Positions 7,373-40,015 of a stretch of 40,015 nt of DNA are shown here, one piece after another. Origin of the DNA: Lentisphaeria bacterium. Its GTDB lineage: Bacteria > Verrucomicrobiota > Lentisphaeria > Oligosphaerales > Oligosphaeraceae. The position numbers were made by a program, and so were the translations under genes. The stretch lies in NCBI GenBank assembly GCA_028706165.1, contig JAQWBY010000002.1, forward strand, positions 5,481 through 45,495, written 5' to 3'. The number at the start of each line of letters is the position of its first letter. The first letter of the stretch is position 1. The notes beneath the pieces are model-generated. The model had not been told where the DNA came from. It searched no databases and saw nothing but the letters and a program-made list of their open reading frames with translations.

Positions 7373-7474
7373 GTGGATGGCGAGCCGGACAACGGCGGGC
7401 GCGGGATGGGCGCGGGCGCGGGATGGGCGGCCACTGGTTTCCTGCGGCCAATGCTCTTCATATAAGTTCCATTG

Positions 7475-7640
7475 CCCTTTCGTCCCCAGTCAGCTTCGCC
7501 GACTGGGGACGAAAGGGCCGAGGAACACGGCCATAATGCCGTCTTACCCAGGGCGGCGCACGCCTTCAGCGTGCTTGCCCTGGGCTGGTATGTTTCGCGC
7601 TTTCAGCGCTTCTGCCGCTTTGCGGCGAGGGACAGCTCGG
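7475..7640. repeat. Interspersed multi-hairpin repeat module (no terminal inverted repeats seen)
   Basis: CCCTTTCGTCCCCAGTC-AGCTTCGCC-GACTGGGGACGAAAGGG hairpin, CCCAGGGC...GCCCTGGG hairpin (7547-7584), then GCGCTTTCAGCGC and GCCGCTTTGCGGC; same order and sequence as inside the 37545-38197 element. Confidence 0.8.
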
Positions 7641-7835: not shown

Positions 7836-10253
7836 TTATCTCATGATGGCGAAGCTTTTGGGTGGTTCGCCGGTGACGAAGTAATAGACGAGGCCGATGA
7901 TGATGGCGATGACGCCGGCGAGAAATTCGCCGGCGACGAGGCCGGCCATGAGCGGTTTGAGGTCCTGGTAGAGTTTGCCGCCGCCGAATTTGGTGACCAG
8001 TGACTTGACGAGCCAGCCGATGATGAAAGAGAAGGCCAGCACGGTGCTTTGGTAGGTGGCGAGAGTGAGGAACATCACCGGGTGCAGTGGCCACCACGGG
8101 AAGCGATGGCGGCAGGCGGTAAAGATGATGACCAGCGAGAAGGTGATGGCGAAAGCGACGAGTGAGGGCCCTTCGGGCTTCATGTCCCGGAAACGCTGCC
8201 AGCCGCCGCGCTGGTCGACGGCCTGGAGGGAACCCTGCGCCTGCATGGTGGTGCGGATACTGATATTGGCGTTGATAGCCATGCGTGGTGGGCTGCCGTA
8301 GGACCAGCCGTCGCCAGTGAGGATGGCGCCGTCCTTGTACTGGAAGTACATAGTGGCGGGCACGGCTACGGCCAGACCGATGATAATGACGGCCAGGCCC
8401 ATGACGCCGACTTTGCCGATGCGGCACTGCAGGCGATCGGTCAGCCCGAGGCTTTCGACTGCGTAGGGCATGAAGCATTCGCGAGGATCGACGAACATGA
8501 CGCAGGACATCATGCCGATGATCAGCAGCTGCTCGGGGCCGAGTGCCTGGACGCCGAGGAAGCCCCAGATGATGGCGCAGGGAAAGAGGTTTGTGTGCAG
8601 GTAGTACACGCCGGCTTCGGCCAGCAGTCGGCTGACTACGGTGAGCAGCACCAGCATGCCGGCGATGTACATGAGCGAAATCTGCCATTGCAGACCGGCC
8701 AGCTGCGTCATGAGGACAAAGGCGATTATGCCGAGGAAGAGCAGGCGTGCACCCCAGACGGCGTGGGGTTCAACTGGGTCGCCGCCTTTCAGGCCGAGGC
8801 AGCGGCGCAGCACGGAGCCGTAGTAATGCCGGCCGGTGTACATGAGCACGGCGAACATGGCTAGGTAGGAGCCGGCGTAGCAGAAAGTGTGCAGGCTCGG
8901 TTGAATCATGGTCGTGCCCATGACAACGCCGTAGGCAGCCAGTTTGCCCGTGATAAAGCCGAAGACGTAGGGCGCAATGCCTAACGACAGCGAGATGTCC
9001 TTGGGTAGAAAATAGGCGAAGCCGATGACAATGAAATAAATCATTGGGTTGAACAGCGACCAGTAGCCAATGCCTGAGCGGTAGTAGGTCGGGAAGAGTT
9101 TCAACAGGGGCGAGAAGGAATAGCGCAGCCGCACGGGGATGAGGTAGTCCGGCCACCAGGCGACACCGCAGTTGTTCATGTGGATGATGAGCACGGGCAG
9201 GAGGCCGATCCAGAACCAGCGGCTGCGGAAGATGTCGCTGATGACCTTGCCGGGCTCGGGTAGGAGCATGCGGGCGAATTCCACCGTGGGGTAGGGCAGG
9301 TGTTCGTGGGTGATCCATTGGCGGTGGATGACCATGGCCAGGCCAGTGGCGCAGGCGCAGACGATGAACATGAGCGGCAACCAGAACAGCAGCGGGCGGC
9401 GCCAGGCCTCCCAGGGTATGTCGTTGCGCAGGGATATGCCCTCGTCGCCGGAGCCCAGGCCATTGATGAAGCCGTCCAGAGCATTGGCGTCGATGCGGGG
9501 ATTGGCCAGCATGATCGGCGGGATGTGGGCGACGGCACCGGGGTTGCGCAGGCGAATGCTGTCACCGAAGGCGACGTCGAAAGCGGCGCGGGTGATGCCC
9601 TGGAGTTCTTCTTCGCTGAGTTGCGCGTCGGGATTTTCGAGGAGGAATTTGGCGTAGTTGGGGAGGAAGGCGCTGTTTTGTCGCAGGTCGGCGTGGAGGC
9701 CCTTGTTTTGGATGATGGTGTTGAATTCGTCCAGGGCCTTGAATTGGAAGTCGCTGCTGGGCTGTTGGTCAGGGTTTTCGGGTAGCATGGCCAGCAGTTC
9801 GGCGGAGAGTTTGCTGTGAATGAGGGCGGCGGCGGGAGTGTCCTGAGCCGAGCTGGCGCGGAGGGCGTTGGCGACTTTGCGCCAGTCACTGATGGCATTG
9901 ATGGCGATGCGGGGGCTGTCGCTTTTCCATGACGACGTGGTGCGGGTGTAGTGATGCGGGAACATCAGCACGTTGGTGAAATGGTGCATGAAGCCGCGGC
10001 CGGGGATAAAGCAGGCGAAGAACAGCAAGGCGATGATGACCGCAAGCTCTTTGCCGCTCAGAGCCCAGCGTTTGCCGAACATGGCCAGCAGGGGATTGCC
10101 CAGGAGGACAAAAAGGATGAGCGACCCCATGATGCTGAACGGCAAGAAATTGCCGACCAGGAAGGTGCCGCGGATGACCATGTCATTGAAAAAGGTGAAG
10201 CCACAGAGAATAATGACGCCAAGAATGCCAATGACAATGGAGCGAAAGGTCAT
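7836..10253 (-). CDS. Multi-TM membrane protein, DUF6785/DUF6784-like (OPT-like transporter fold possible), paralogue 1
   Basis: 805 aa, about a dozen hydrophobic segments; strong similarity by eye along its length to the 10578-12995 protein (TFFNDMVI-GTFLVGNF-PFSIMG..., EHLPYPTVEF-RML-PEPG). Confidence 0.7.
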   Translation of the reverse strand: MTFRSIVIGILGVIILCGFTFFNDMVIRGTFLVGNFLPFSIMGSLILFVLLGNPLLAMFGKRWALSGKELAVIIALLFFACFIPGRGFMHHFTNVLMFPHHYTRTTSSWKSDSPRIAINAISDWRKVANALRASSAQDTPAAALIHSKLSAELLAMLPENPDQQPSSDFQFKALDEFNTIIQNKGLHADLRQNSAFLPNYAKFLLENPDAQLSEEELQGITRAAFDVAFGDSIRLRNPGAVAHIPPIMLANPRIDANALDGFINGLGSGDEGISLRNDIPWEAWRRPLLFWLPLMFIVCACATGLAMVIHRQWITHEHLPYPTVEFARMLLPEPGKVISDIFRSRWFWIGLLPVLIIHMNNCGVAWWPDYLIPVRLRYSFSPLLKLFPTYYRSGIGYWSLFNPMIYFIVIGFAYFLPKDISLSLGIAPYVFGFITGKLAAYGVVMGTTMIQPSLHTFCYAGSYLAMFAVLMYTGRHYYGSVLRRCLGLKGGDPVEPHAVWGARLLFLGIIAFVLMTQLAGLQWQISLMYIAGMLVLLTVVSRLLAEAGVYYLHTNLFPCAIIWGFLGVQALGPEQLLIIGMMSCVMFVDPRECFMPYAVESLGLTDRLQCRIGKVGVMGLAVIIIGLAVAVPATMYFQYKDGAILTGDGWSYGSPPRMAINANISIRTTMQAQGSLQAVDQRGGWQRFRDMKPEGPSLVAFAITFSLVIIFTACRHRFPWWPLHPVMFLTLATYQSTVLAFSFIIGWLVKSLVTKFGGGKLYQDLKPLMAGLVAGEFLAGVIAIIIGLVYYFVTGEPPKSFAIMR

Positions 10254-10367: not shown

Positions 10368-10531
10368 GTAATCGGTCACCCATTGAGAATTGAACCATAG
10401 AGCTTCTGGCTGAGTCAAACGTGCCCGTTTCCCTGGCCGCGAAGCGGCAGCAGCGCTGAAAGCGCGAAACATACCAGCCCAGGGCAAGCACGCTGAAAGC
10501 GTGCACCGCCCTGGGTACAATGGCGACCATT
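10368..10531. mobile_element. Truncated copy of the GTAATCGGTCA-terminus MITE-like element
   Basis: Left terminus GTAATCGGTCACCCATTGAGAAT (22/23 identical to the terminus at 39223-39245) followed by the same internal sequence (TGA-CCATAGAGCTTCTGGCTGAGTC-AACGTGCC...), ending near GGCGACCAT; no right terminus. Confidence 0.7.
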
Positions 10532-10577: not shown

Positions 10578-12995
10578 TCACGAGCGGAGGATGGCGAAGC
10601 TTTTGGGCGGGTTGCCGGTCGTGAAGTAGTAGACGAGGCCGATGATGATGGCGATGACGCCGGCGAGGAATTCGCCGGCGACGATGCCGGCCATGAAGGG
10701 CTTGAGGTCTTGGTAGAGTTTGCCGCCGCCGAAGCGGGTGACCAGGGATTTGATGAGCCAGCCGATGAGGAAGGAGAAGGACAGGACGATGCTCTGGTAG
10801 GTGGCCAGGGTCAGGAACATCACTGGGTGTAGTGGCCACCAAGGGAAGCGATGTCGGCAGATAGTGAAGAGGATCACCAGTGAGAAGGTGATGGCAAAGG
10901 CCACCAGGGACGGTGCGACGGGCTTGATCGCCTTGATGCGTTCCCAGGGGCTGCGGTCCTCAATGATCTTCAAGGCGCCCTGTGCCTGCAGGGTGTTGCG
11001 CAGTTCGATGTTGGCATTGATGGCGATCATGGGCGTGTAGCGGGTCCAGCCGTCGCCGCTGCGGGTGCCGCCATTTTTGTGTTGGTAATAGAGTGTAGCC
11101 GGCACGCCGGCGGCCAGGCCGATGATGATGATGGCCAGGCCGGTGACGGCGAGTTTGCCGATGCGGCATTGCAGGCGGTCGCTTAAGCAGAAGCCGGCGA
11201 CGGCGTAGGGCATGAAGCATTCGCGGGAATCGACAAAGGTGACGCAGGAGATGGTGCCGATGATGAGGATCTGCTCGGGGCCGAGAGATTGCACCCCCAG
11301 GAAGCCCCAGATGATGGCGCAGGGGAAGACGTAGGTGTGCAGGTAGTACACGCCGGCTTCGGCGAGGAGCCGGCTGACGACCGTGAGCAGCACCAGCATC
11401 CCCGAGATATACATGAGGGCGATCGGCCATTCAAGGTCGATCAGCTGAGTCATCAGCACGAAGGCGATCATGCCGAGGAAGACCATACGCGCGCCCCAGA
11501 CGGCGTGCACTTCTACGGGGTCGCCGCCTTTCAGCCCAAAGCAGCGGCGCAGGACGGACCCGTAGTAGCGTCGGCCGGTGTACATGAGCACGGCGAACAT
11601 GCCGATGTAGGCACCGCCGTAGCAGAAGGTGCTATAGGTCGGCTTGAGCATGGTCGCGCCCATGACGACGCCGAAGCCGGCGAGCTTGCCAGTCACAAAC
11701 CCGTAGAGGAAGGGCGAGAGCCCCAGGGACAGCGAGATGTCCTTGGGCAGAAAATAGGCGAAGCCGATGACCACGAAGAAGAGGGTTGGCGCGAAGAGTG
11801 CCCAGATGTGAATGCCGGAGCGGTAGTAGGTCGGGGCCATTTTGAGCAGCGGCGTGAAAATAAATTTGAGTTTGACGGGGATGAGGACGTTTGGCCACCA
11901 AGTGGCGGCGCAGTTGTTCAGGTGGATGATGAGTACGGGCACCAGGCCGAGCCAGAAGAGCCGGTTGCGGAAGACGCTGCTGAGGACCTGGCCGGGCTCA
12001 GGCATGAGCATACGCATGAATTCCACCGTGGGGTAGGGCAGGTGCTCATGGCTGATCCATTGGCGGTGGACCACCATCGCCAAGCCGGTGGCGGCCGTGC
12101 AGATGATGAACATGATCGGCAGCCAGAACAGCAGGGTGTGTCGCCAGGCGCGCCAGGGAATGTCGTGGAACATGGAGATGGTTTCGTCGCCGACGCCGAC
12201 GCCGTTGACAAAGCCGTCGAGGGCATTGGCGTCCTGACGTGGATTGGCCAGCATAAGCGGCGGGATATGCGAGACGGCGCCGGGGTTGCGAAAGCGGATA
12301 GCGCCGGCGAAGGCGACGTCGAAGACGGCGCGGGTGAGGCCTTGGAGTTCTTCCTCGGAGAGCTGGTCATCGTTGCTTTTGAGCAGGTAGCGCGCGTAAC
12401 CGGGCAGTGGCGGCGGGTTGCTGCGCAGTTCGTCGTGGAAGGCCTTGTCCTGAATGAGACGATTGAATTCGCTGAGGGCGCGGAATTGGCAATCGGGGCT
12501 GGGGATGTCGTGCGAGCTGTCGGCCAGCATGGCGAGCAGGTCGGGGCTGAGGTGTTTGCGGATGAGCTCGGCGGCGGGTTGCGGCTGGTCGGGGGGGGCG
12601 CTGAGGACGGCGGCGACTTTATGCCAGTCGCTGATGTCATTGAGGGCGATGCGCGGGCTACCGGCTTTCCAGGAGGCGTTGGTGCGGGTGTAATGGTGCG
12701 GGAACATGAGCACGTTGGCGAAGTGGTGCATGAGGCCGCGGCCGGGAATGAAGCAGGAGAAGAAGATCAGGGTGATGATGACGGCCAGCTCTTTGCCGCT
12801 CAGCGGCCAGTTCTTGCCGCCGCGAGCGAGGAGGGGATTGCCTAGGAGCACAAAGAGAATCAGCGTGCCCATGATGCTGAAGGGCATGAAATTGCCCACC
12901 AGGAAGGTGCCGCCGATGACCATGTCGTTGAAGAAGGTGAAACTGCACAGCAGAACGACGCCGATGATGCTGATGATGATGGCGCGAAAGGTCAT
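10578..12995 (-). CDS. Multi-TM membrane protein, DUF6785/DUF6784-like, paralogue 2
   Basis: Internal ATG at 12995 gives MTFRAIIISIIGVVLLCSFTFFNDMVIGGTFLVGNF..., aligned with the start of paralogue 1 and also exactly 805 aa. Confidence 0.7.
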   Translation of the reverse strand: MTFRAIIISIIGVVLLCSFTFFNDMVIGGTFLVGNFMPFSIMGTLILFVLLGNPLLARGGKNWPLSGKELAVIITLIFFSCFIPGRGLMHHFANVLMFPHHYTRTNASWKAGSPRIALNDISDWHKVAAVLSAPPDQPQPAAELIRKHLSPDLLAMLADSSHDIPSPDCQFRALSEFNRLIQDKAFHDELRSNPPPLPGYARYLLKSNDDQLSEEELQGLTRAVFDVAFAGAIRFRNPGAVSHIPPLMLANPRQDANALDGFVNGVGVGDETISMFHDIPWRAWRHTLLFWLPIMFIICTAATGLAMVVHRQWISHEHLPYPTVEFMRMLMPEPGQVLSSVFRNRLFWLGLVPVLIIHLNNCAATWWPNVLIPVKLKFIFTPLLKMAPTYYRSGIHIWALFAPTLFFVVIGFAYFLPKDISLSLGLSPFLYGFVTGKLAGFGVVMGATMLKPTYSTFCYGGAYIGMFAVLMYTGRRYYGSVLRRCFGLKGGDPVEVHAVWGARMVFLGMIAFVLMTQLIDLEWPIALMYISGMLVLLTVVSRLLAEAGVYYLHTYVFPCAIIWGFLGVQSLGPEQILIIGTISCVTFVDSRECFMPYAVAGFCLSDRLQCRIGKLAVTGLAIIIIGLAAGVPATLYYQHKNGGTRSGDGWTRYTPMIAINANIELRNTLQAQGALKIIEDRSPWERIKAIKPVAPSLVAFAITFSLVILFTICRHRFPWWPLHPVMFLTLATYQSIVLSFSFLIGWLIKSLVTRFGGGKLYQDLKPFMAGIVAGEFLAGVIAIIIGLVYYFTTGNPPKSFAILRS

Positions 12996-13162
12996 GATGC
13001 CATTCCTCAAAGGCCGCCAGTTGGCGTGGCTTGCGGTTGGGCGCAAAAGAAAAGCATACTATGCATGATACGCGATATTCTGCCAGTAGCGGCCGTGTGG
13101 TTGCCATCGGCGCCCGCGCCGGCGCAGTTGTACGCATGGCGCGGGCTGCTTGGTGAGCGTGC

Positions 13163-30608: not shown

Positions 30609-30706
30609 AGACCTCAGTAGATGTGATTGGAGGAAAAAGAGCCTAAGTAGAATAGCCCCGAAAAGGCAAATTTAAATGTGATTTAGTAGAAAATGAAAAG
30701 GTTGAT

Positions 30707-31141
30707 GTAGGCGGTCACCCAGTGATAATGGCGGCCAGTAATGTAACTATCCGGCACGATGGGATGCAACGTGTCTTGCCAATGTGGCGCCCTCCGGGCG
30801 CAATTCTAACTTGTTATCATACCCCAGGTTGCGGCGCCCTCCGGGCGCCTCACTTGGGGGTATGCATGGTACGGCCCTCCGGGCCGAACTTGGCCGACCT
30901 GCATTTGAGTGCCGCGAAGCGGCAGAAGCGCTGAAAGCGCGAAACAGTCCAGCCCAGGGCAAGCAGCGCCGAAGGCGCGCGCCGCCCTGGGTAACGCGCC
31001 ATTTTTGTTCGTGTTCCTCGGCCTCTTTGGCCCCAGTCGGCGAAGCTGACTGGAGCCAAAGAGGCAATGGAACTCACTTGCTTACCTGGGATTGACATCG
31101 GTGGCAGGTTTGGCCGCCATTATCACTGGGTGACCGATTAC
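30707..31141. mobile_element. MITE-like element with 30-bp terminal inverted repeats and perfect 8-bp target duplication
   Basis: Left GTAGGCGGTCACCCAGTGATAATGGCGGCC (30707-30736) vs right GGCCGCCATTATCACTGGGTGACCGATTAC (31112-31141): 28/30 inverted match. Flanking direct repeat AGGTTGAT at 30699-30706 and 31142-31149, exactly abutting the termini. Confidence 0.85.
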
Positions 31142-31327
31142 AGGTTGATTTTCTCCCGTCTGGCGGGGAAAACGCCCATGTCGTCTTATATTTGGAGCTG
31201 CGGTGGTGGCCTGTGGCGCTGCTGTCGGTGCTTGGTTGGTTGTTGAGCTGGCGCGTGGCGACGTGCGCATTGAGGTCTGTCATCTGCAGTCCTAAGCGGG
31301 TTGCAGCAAAGGGAATACAGGTGTTTC

Positions 31328-35789: not shown

Positions 35790-36204
35790 GTAATCGGTCA
35801 CCCATTGATAATAGATGCACACCATTCTATCCGGGCCGAAAAGTGCCGGGATGGCGGCGCTCCCGGCAGTCCCGGCGACAATGGCATTTTTTTATCCACA
35901 GATTACGCAGATTAACGCAGATTATTTTTTGAGATTGGCCGCTTGGTGTCGTCAGGTCGCTGAGATTCAGGCGTCACCCTCGCGTCCAAAACATCGGCCA
36001 ACCGGTCCCCGAAGTCCAGGAAGTCCCCAATCAGTCCCTGGTGTCCAAAGCGTCATTCCCCACGGTCCCGAAAGTCCCCACCGTCCCGGCCATGAGTCGT
36101 GAGACGTGAGACGTGAGTCCTCGCCCCGGCGCCCCGCCGCCAATCAGTCCCACTGGTCCCTGGCGTCCCCTGAGGCCGGCCATTATCAATAAGTGACCGA
36201 TTAC
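35790..36204. mobile_element. MITE-like element, same terminus family
   Basis: Left GTAATCGGTCACCCATTGATAAT (35790-35812), right ATTATCAATAAGTGACCGATTAC (36182-36204): 21/23 inverted match. No flanking duplication seen. Confidence 0.75.
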
Positions 36205-37544: not shown

Positions 37545-38197
37545 GCAATCGGTCAGTAAGCACCCCGGTGGGGAAAACACCGGGGACAATTTGCAGGAAA
37601 CCCACGGTCAGTCGCCGCCCAGCTATTACACATGGGTGGCTAACCAGGCAGCGGATTTCATAGGAGCAATGCTTTTCACATAGCATACGGCAATCGCCGG
37701 CCATGAGTTGATTGGCAACCATGCAAGATCATTCGCCGAGGTTTTGAGCACCAAAGGTGCGCCCTAAGATAGCCCAGGGCAAGCGCCCGCAGGGCGCGTC
37801 GCCCTGGGTTAAGGTGCCCAAACCCAAAAGAGCCCTGAAAGGGCGGCCTAAAAGACCTGCGACGAAGGGTCACAGCGACAAATTGCCGCAGCAATCAATG
37901 AGTTCCATTGCCCCTTTGGCCCCAGTCAGCTTCGCCGACTGGGGCCAAAGGGGCCGAGGAACACTGTCTTGGTTGGCGTCTTACCCAGGGCGGCGCGCGC
38001 CTTCGGCGCCGCTTGCCCTGGGCTGGACTGTTTCGCGCTTTCAGCGCTTCTGCCGCCTCGCGGCGGAAATGCACGACGAGAAAAGGCTGCTTGGTTGAAA
38101 CAACACGTGCCATTGATACCGTTAAATGAAGAACATCGGTTTCATAGGAGTAAGCCCCCCGGTGGGGAAAACACCGGGGTGCTTACTGACCGATTAC
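37545..38197. mobile_element. MITE-like element with variant 26-bp termini
   Basis: Left GCAATCGGTCAGTAAGCACCCCGGTG (37545-37570) vs right CACCGGGGTGCTTACTGACCGATTAC (38172-38197): 25/26 inverted match; imperfect flanking repeat CTCGCGAT (37537-37544) / CTCGCAGT (38198-38205). Confidence 0.75.
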
Positions 38198-39222: not shown

Positions 39223-39519
39223 GTAATCGGTCACCCATTGATAATTGAGCCATAGAGCTTCTGGCTGAGTCGAACGTGCCTGTTTCCCTCGCCGCGAAGC
39301 GGCAAAAGCGCTGAAAGCGCGAAACATACCAGCCCAGGGCAAGCACGCTGAAAGCGTGCTTGCCCTGGGTACAACGGCGACCATGTTCGTGTTCCTCGGC
39401 CCCTTTTGCCCCAGTCGGCGAAGCTGACTGGGGCAAAAGGGGCAATGGAACTCACTTGCTTACTTGGGATTGACATCGGCGGCATGTTTGGCCGCCATTA
39501 TCAATGGGTGACCGATTAC
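39223..39519. mobile_element. MITE-like element with perfect 23-bp terminal inverted repeats
   Basis: GTAATCGGTCACCCATTGATAAT (39223-39245) and ATTATCAATGGGTGACCGATTAC (39497-39519), perfect inverted repeat; flanked by GTTTTTT at 39216-39222 and 39520-39526. Confidence 0.85.
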
Positions 39520-39526
39520 GTTTTTT

Positions 39527-40015
39527 GTAATCGGTCACCCATTGATAATAGATGCACACCTTGCCTCTCTGGCGCGGTAGGACGAGACGAGCCAAGCCAA
39601 TGCGGCGCCCTCCAGGCGCAATTCCAGGTTATTGTCATACCCCGAGTTGCGTCGCCCTCCGGGCGCCTCACTCGGAATTATGCATGATGCGGCCCTCCGG
39701 GCCGAACTTGGCCAATCTGTCTGATCGACTGTCTTTTGTCGCGGACGGATCTTCTTTGTGGTTATCGCGGACGGATCGGACGGATCTTCTTTCTGGTTAT
39801 CGCGGACGGATCGGACGGATCGGACGGATCGGACGGATCCGATTACTGATCGGTCTGATCGGTCTGATCGGTCTGATCCGGCTGCGAAAACTTGCCGAAA
39901 ACGTTGTTACCAGAAGTCCCTAGAGTCGGTCAATCAGTCCCTGGTGTCCAAAGCGTCATTCCCCACGGTCCCGAAAGTCCCCACAGTCCCGGCCATGAGT
40001 CGTGAGACGTGAGAC
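39527..40015. mobile_element. Second MITE-like element, left terminus plus body; runs off window
   Basis: GTAATCGGTCACCCATTGATAATAGATGCACACC (39527-39560) identical over 34 nt to 35790-35823; 39932-40015 matches 36029-36112 with one mismatch seen. Confidence 0.75.
39741..39879. repeat. Short tandem repeats: (GGACGGATC)n then (TGATCGGTC)n
   Basis: GCGGACGGATCTTCTTT-TGGTTATC superrepeats, GGACGGATC run up to 39839, then TGATCGGTC repeats from 39847. Confidence 0.9.

Follow-up and report, generated by a model that had tools for sequence, protein, structure and literature searches.

A hairpin repeat with covarying arms in Oligosphaera resembles REP elements and occurs inside IS66-type MITEs

Hairpin repeats of the window

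The window, the whole stretch of 40,015 nucleotides analysed here from the MAG of a Lentisphaeria bacterium, carries five units of a hairpin repeat, all located between large ORFs (Table 1). It is matched in order by the genome of Oligosphaera ethanolica DSM 24202 (G002; NZ_JAUSVL010000001, 5,729,305 bp) at 92-96% nucleotide identity, and this colinear match indicates that the window comes from the MAG of a close congener. Two adjacent paralogous DUF6785/DUF6784 genes on the minus strand (7836-10253 and 10578-13046), encoding proteins of 805 and 822 aa, have the truncated element at 10368 between them.

The initial annotation had located four CAGTC/GACTG hairpins and six CCCAGGGC..GCCCTGGG hairpins in the window, and both sets lie where it placed them, the former at 7466-7526, 31013-31073, 37902-37962 and 39391-39451, and the latter at 7547, 10478, 30953, 37773, 37984 and 39333. 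These hairpins are parts of one repeat rather than independent structures. The unit, of about 170 bp, has the order H1-H2-GAAACATACCAG-H3-H4, and a full copy consists of H1 (GCCGCGAAGCGGC), H2 (GCGCTGAAAGCGC), the linker, H3 (CCCAGGGC...GCCCTGGG), about 22 nt and H4, which is laid out as GTTCC-TCG-GCCCC...CAGTC-GGCGAAGCT-GACTG...GGGGC-AAT-GGAAC. The TCG/AAT bulge of H4 and the AA/GCC internal loop of H3 are both conserved and make the palindromes directional. Among the sampled loci, which were mostly chosen by the core motif, H4 adjoins the core in all but one case, and the exception lies at a contig end.

Comparison with O. ethanolica divides the five units of the window. The unit at 7466 is common to both genomes, three units are absent from the orthologous sites (10368, 30707 and 39223), and the place corresponding to 37.7-38.1 kb holds other repeats. 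For 30707-31141 the O. ethanolica site is exactly empty, with one AGGTTGAT against two in the window, and the same comparison gives an exact left boundary for the element at 39223.

Other repeats accompany these units. A second hairpin-rich family, with CCCTCCGGG loops, a TACCCC..GGGGTA stem and GGCCGAACTTGGCC, is present at 30790-30883 and 39655-39701; it is often joined to the core on the left side, and in O. ethanolica it also occupies the 37.7-kb position. Beside the last element, at 39750-39880, GGACGGATC and GGTCTGATC form short tandem runs.

Table 1. Positions of the repeat features in the window
Feature	Position	Strand	Description
MITE-like element	39223..39519	+	Complete, 297 bp; ends GTAATCGGTCAC...GTGACCGATTAC; four-hairpin core inside; GTTTTTT on either side
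H1	39291..39303	+	GCCGC-GAA-GCGGC; single changes aside, invariant across 91 unique copies
H2	39308..39320	+	GCGCT-GAA-AGCGC; left hairpin of the REP-like unit
Linker	39321..39332	+	GAAACATACCAG; its ACATACCAG part is conserved in several phyla
H3	39333..39369	+	CCCAGGGC...GCCCTGGG; internal loop perfected here, with AA..TT instead of the usual AA/GCC
H4	39391..39451	+	Covarying hairpin, GTTCC-TCG-GCCCCTTTTGCCCCAGTC-GGCGAAGCT-GACTGGGGCAAAAGGGGC-AAT-GGAAC
H4	37902..37962	-	Copy named in the initial annotation; core on the minus strand
H3	37984..38022	-	Same copy as H4 at 37902..37962
Linker, H2 and H1	38023..38064	-	Same copy; linker CTGGACTGTTTC 38023-38034, H2 38035-38047, H1 38052-38064
Extra hairpin	37773..37808	+	CCCAGGGC...GCCCTGGG; full unit not present
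Full core	7466..7626	-	H4-H3-linker-H2-H1 without MITE ends; the orthologous place in O. ethanolica also has the core
Truncated element	10368..10530	+	Left MITE end, H1, H2, linker and H3, without H4; element absent in O. ethanolica
Composite element	30707..31141	+	435 bp; IS66-type ends; additional CCTCCGGG-hairpin module; H1-H4 at 30911-31073
Target duplication	30699..30706 (left), 31142-31149 (right)	+	AGGTTGAT
Element without core	35790..36204	+	MITE ends without the hairpin core; element absent in O. ethanolica

Copy number and spread of the unit

Searches with the motif ACATACCAGCCC revealed a repeat of high copy number, an imperfect palindrome that is mostly intergenic, as REP sequences are. 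The MAG contains 145 copies, distributed almost equally between the strands (73/72), while the reversed control gave 0, and the two congeners have 70 and 135 copies. Outside these three Oligosphaera genomes, 37 copies were counted in G013, 25 in G005 and 20 in G032, with backward controls of 0 or nearly 0. A longer form of the motif is present in genomes labelled Kiritimatiellota, Akkermansiaceae, Opitutia, Acidobacteria, Chitinivibrionales and Schlesneria. Across phyla, the hairpin-ACATACCAG-hairpin arrangement keeps its linker constant while the stems are swapped for other self-complementary sequences (GCGCT/AGCGC, GCCCC/GGGGC, GGGCC/GGCCC and GGCCT/AGGCC). Of 46 linker sites from loci other than those of the MAG and O. 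ethanolica, 33 are bordered left and right by self-complementary stems.

The copies also occur in ordered arrays. Many of those in G013 form inverted pairs about 220-264 bp apart, which is the layout of REPINs; four tandem copies with a spacing of 88 bp are found in O. ethanolica, and three copies spaced by 111 bp in the MAG. In G013, contigs C260, C304, C345, C399 and C437 hold inverted ACATACCAGCCC pairs, and the Y1 gene of this genome (L242) carries the same unit. As a separate observation, the listed first 2.1 Mb of O. ethanolica (G002:C1) have about 30 motif copies on the plus strand and 13 on the minus strand, which may point to a replication-strand bias of the kind expected of Y1 elements.

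Covariation of the hairpin arms

The initial annotation had proposed that both arms of these hairpins change together, as expected for a selected fold. Four window copies alone cannot show covariation; therefore 93 core copies, 91 of them unique, were gathered from the MAG as a sample of the full set. A tree was built with FastTree, and a double change was defined as the alteration of both sides of a pair on one branch, ending in a standard pair. The null, which served as a stand-in for R-scape, was obtained by re-placing the changes on the branches in 2000 runs and ignores recombination between copies.

Under this test the proposal holds for H4 and largely fails for the other hairpins. Each of the 18 pairs of the H4 stem is Watson-Crick or G-U in 95.6-100% of copies, and 21 branches carry a paired double change. 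Under the null the mean was 3.37 and the maximum 9, and 0 of 2000 runs reached the observed value. Sliding the partner positions as a control left only 0-3 double changes. The H4 events include the transversions G-C to T-A, G-C to C-G and T-A to A-T, which have no wobble intermediate, and many distinct pair types occur at different pairs, each needing a separate origin. Across the same copies and tree, H1 and H2 are nearly invariant and show no double changes, and the outer stem of H3 (8 bp), paired in 98-100% of copies and nearly invariant, shows zero. Only one pair covaries in the H3 tip (A-T/G-C, on 5 branches); the tips differ also in length and through replacement. Covariation is thus genuine in H4, and in the remaining hairpins it is either minor or absent. 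The initial annotation was mistaken in reading the copy at 31021 as perfectly compensated, since GGCCCCAGTC stands opposite GACTGGAGCC in a C-A mismatch.

Homogenisation of the palindromes, which the initial annotation had itself named as the counter-explanation, is partly realised. The TCG/AAT bulge has become a perfect ATT/AAT palindrome in two H4 copies (L035 and L126), and the internal loop has been perfected in three H3 copies, two as GGC/GCC and one as AA/TT (window 39333). Template switching is a known source of compensatory changes (PMC8794818), and for this reason selection cannot be taken as the sole source of the covariation. During replication, a template switch from one arm of a near-palindrome to the other would rewrite one arm from its partner, and the single perfected copies look like outcomes of such events. 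This palindrome repair, seen in few copies, is probably the source of part of the covariation. Whether it could account for most of it, with the covariation mainly mutational and arms copied onto arms in long near-perfect palindromes free of any selection on the fold, is a point on which the data are divided. The perfected bulges and loops, the transversion double changes lacking intermediates and the documented mechanism all speak for such an origin. Against it, the bulge is retained in 80 of 93 H4 copies and, like the AA/GCC loop, in most copies, so repair is either rare or selected against, and the wholesale replacement of stems across phyla, which leaves them paired, is less simply explained by single-step arm copying. 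A mainly mutational origin is accordingly possible, but somewhat doubtful.

For a comparison of core with flank divergence, the sampled loci offered only two shared orthologous sites, a number too small to bear on selection. One of them (L024/L169) shows 0 differences in 164 core positions and 20 in 722 flank positions, and the other, at window 7466, shows few differences.

Hairpins in RNA or in DNA

Since the fold had been proposed for RNA or for a DNA cruciform, both forms were considered. The predicted RNA folds are very strong (z about -12 on the plus strand and -9 on the minus strand), and the DNA folds are equally clear (z -11.4 and -10.6); fold energies that are strong on both strands for both molecules do not discriminate between them, nor do the covarying stems, which are confined to H4. 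If the units were conserved structural RNAs, or elements of RNA processing or termination made by intergenic transcription, the strong RNA folds and the H4 covariation would fit. Rfam gave 0 matches in the window, the stems lack a T-tract, the gene settings of the copies are inconsistent (convergent, divergent and codirectional), the orientation is divided in half, and most sites are not common to species at 92-96% identity, so that turnover is high even among close species. Such an origin is highly improbable, and a role of the hairpins as RNA is unsupported.

Intrinsic termination was rejected as a separate candidate. No T-tract follows the stems, H4 being followed by TCACTTGCTT, and a terminator scan returned 11 matches against 10.2 expected from shuffles, none of them at H1-H4.

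What stands of the initial proposal is the hairpin fold, with DNA as the better-fitting half of the alternative, in view of the linker that stays constant between replaced stems and of the neighbouring Y1 transposase genes, relatives of which read hairpins in single-stranded DNA. GAA triloops, all on the same strand, occur in all four Oligosphaera hairpins. The sequence GCGAAGC forms an exceptionally stable DNA mini-hairpin (PMC4686876), and the triloops therefore hint at DNA, but as relatives also have AAC loops the DNA reading does not depend on this hint.

The IS66-type MITE layer

Many copies of the unit are located inside the 297-bp element, of which the MAG has about 40 near-full copies with 92-97% identity. 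IS66 elements are characterised by GTAA ends and 8-bp target duplications. The element of the MAG has terminal inverted repeats starting with GTAA, and both ends are present in 35 copies. The target duplication is exact over 8 bp or more in 22 of these, and in 27 it shows at most 1 mismatch in 8; mismatched pairs, used as the control, gave 9 in 10000. Additionally, an autonomous IS66 element of 2566 bp in the family member G005 (L227) possesses near-identical ends, a PF03050 transposase and the target duplication TTTTTCGC. Because of the duplications, the exact empty site in O. ethanolica and this autonomous relative whose ends match, the spread of the element is attributed to IS66-type transposition, and in Oligosphaera the unit has become cargo of the MITE, which spreads it with 8-bp target duplications.

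No IS66 transposase was found in the MAG itself (85% complete, 536 contigs). The repeat copies of the MAG may thus be stranded; alternatively, the transposase genes may lie in the missing 15%. The genome G022 has IS66-type MITE versions of about 120 bp (for example C1:11878-11999 and C24:10039-10160) that consist of the ends only and lack the hairpin core; neither an IS66 nor a Y1 transposase was detected there.

Association with Y1 transposase genes

In several relatives, within the genus and beyond it, the H2-ACATACCAG-H3 part of the unit flanks genes for Y1 (IS200-like, HUH) transposases. It precedes Y1 ORFs and follows them in inverted orientation in the congener G001 (L240) and in G013 (L242), G032 (L254) and G037 (L092), and it also adjoins Y1 genes in G001 (L085) and, on one side, in O. 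ethanolica (L086). A Y1 gene lies at 5601014-5601463 of G002 (O. ethanolica), and one of G001 at C113:87-536. The L240 locus retains the CAAGC...GCGCCG asymmetry seen in the H3 of the window, and its protein matches Y1_Tnp with an E value of 7.5e-23. The linked proteins carry the signature Y---Q--HH. More widely, for 35 of 51 Y---Q--HH Y1 genes the similarity between upstream and downstream flanks exceeds the 99th centile given by mismatched loci, from which it follows that flanking repeats are common even where their sequence differs; 47 of 53 such genes in relatives have flanks with other hairpins or none, without the exact CATACCAGCC unit. H4 was not seen beside the Y1 genes examined in detail, so its part in transposition is at most putative.

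The features of RAYT-associated REPs are not all present. At the foot of H3, nearly all copies have CCAG in place of the GTAG/GTGG guide tetranucleotide of RAYT REPs, GTAG appearing only in the versions of some relatives, such as L089, and the partner proteins are of the Y---Q--HH type rather than class-2 (Y---NP). Because the GTAG foot and the Y---NP protein are both missing, the unit, which works like a REP, is not classed among the RAYT REPs. A classical RAYT in the MAG was also considered and rejected, as profile and protein searches did not detect Y1_Tnp in this assembly.

These associations bear on the suggestion that the hairpins are passive filler of the IS66-type MITE and have no link to a Y1 transposase. 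Many copies do lie within the MITE, and the MAG has no detected Y1 gene. Against this, the inner unit occurs without MITE ends in each of the three Oligosphaera genomes as well as in genera further away, MITEs without the unit exist (window 35790-36204), and inverted pairs of the unit flank Y1 genes. Passive carriage is improbable overall, and for the inner unit it is refuted.

The preferred interpretation is a mobile repeat unit whose inner part is a REP-like target of a Y1 transposase, which is carried as cargo by an IS66-type MITE, and whose arms are coupled by both the need for a hairpin and template switching; this reading is very probable. The inner hairpin-ACATACCAG-hairpin would be the REP-like, single-stranded DNA target of a Y---Q--HH HUH/Y1 transposase, and the unit would spread through recognition of the folded strand by this enzyme at replication, a mode of action suggested by the gene association and by analogy with TnpAREP, which recognises folded single-stranded DNA (PMC8266576). 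CCAG at the foot of H3 would take the role of the GTAG guide, and paired changes would be retained because the transposase needs the hairpin.

Relation to known systems and significance

The unit shares many features with REP, BIME and REPIN sequences and their TnpAREP (RAYT) proteins (PMC2817692, PMC3116915, PMC6006769, PMC8266576). Both are short imperfect palindromes with high intergenic copy number, arranged in tandem and inverted arrays; both flank a low-copy Y1 gene, often as inverted pairs; and both show a conserved stem mismatch and compensatory stem changes, the latter being common in REPINs (PMC3116915). REPs are already known in the PVC group (PMC3733652). The Oligosphaera unit differs in its CCAG foot instead of GTAG/GTGG, in its link to a Y---Q--HH protein instead of the Y---NP protein of class-2 RAYTs, in having two hairpins with a conserved ACATACCAG linker between them, and in residing in a genome without a detected Y1 gene.

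The linked proteins resemble TnpAY1 subclass 1.2 in their Y---Q--HH signature, WQ motif, length of about 150 aa and low copy number (PMC6006769). For this subclass, one study reports occurrence mostly in Cyanobacteria and Bacteroidetes and no REP-like sequences (PMC6006769), whereas the genes described here are common in relatives from Verrucomicrobiota/Lentisphaerota and are flanked by hairpin repeats dispersed through the genome. With IS66 elements and their MITEs, the Oligosphaera element shares GTAA ends, the 8-bp target duplication and an autonomous PF03050 partner with near-identical ends (L227), but its interior is a REP-like hairpin array and not a transposase remnant. The broader proposal, that Y---Q--HH (subclass 1.2) Y1 transposases own a REP-like hairpin-ACATACCAG-hairpin system with a CCAG foot across Verrucomicrobiota and some other phyla, with as many as about 145 copies in one genome, and that it serves also as IS66 MITE cargo in Oligosphaera, has about an even chance of being correct.

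Covariation, which is commonly read as proof of a functional RNA, can belong to mobile DNA hairpins, and where genomes are rich in repeats it calls for careful interpretation. Should the Y1 link be true, the unit is a candidate substrate for subclass-1.2 HUH enzymes in the cultured O. ethanolica DSM 24202, where activity is directly testable. The element also combines two unrelated transposition systems, and this would account for how the repeat could go on spreading where the Y1 gene has been lost.
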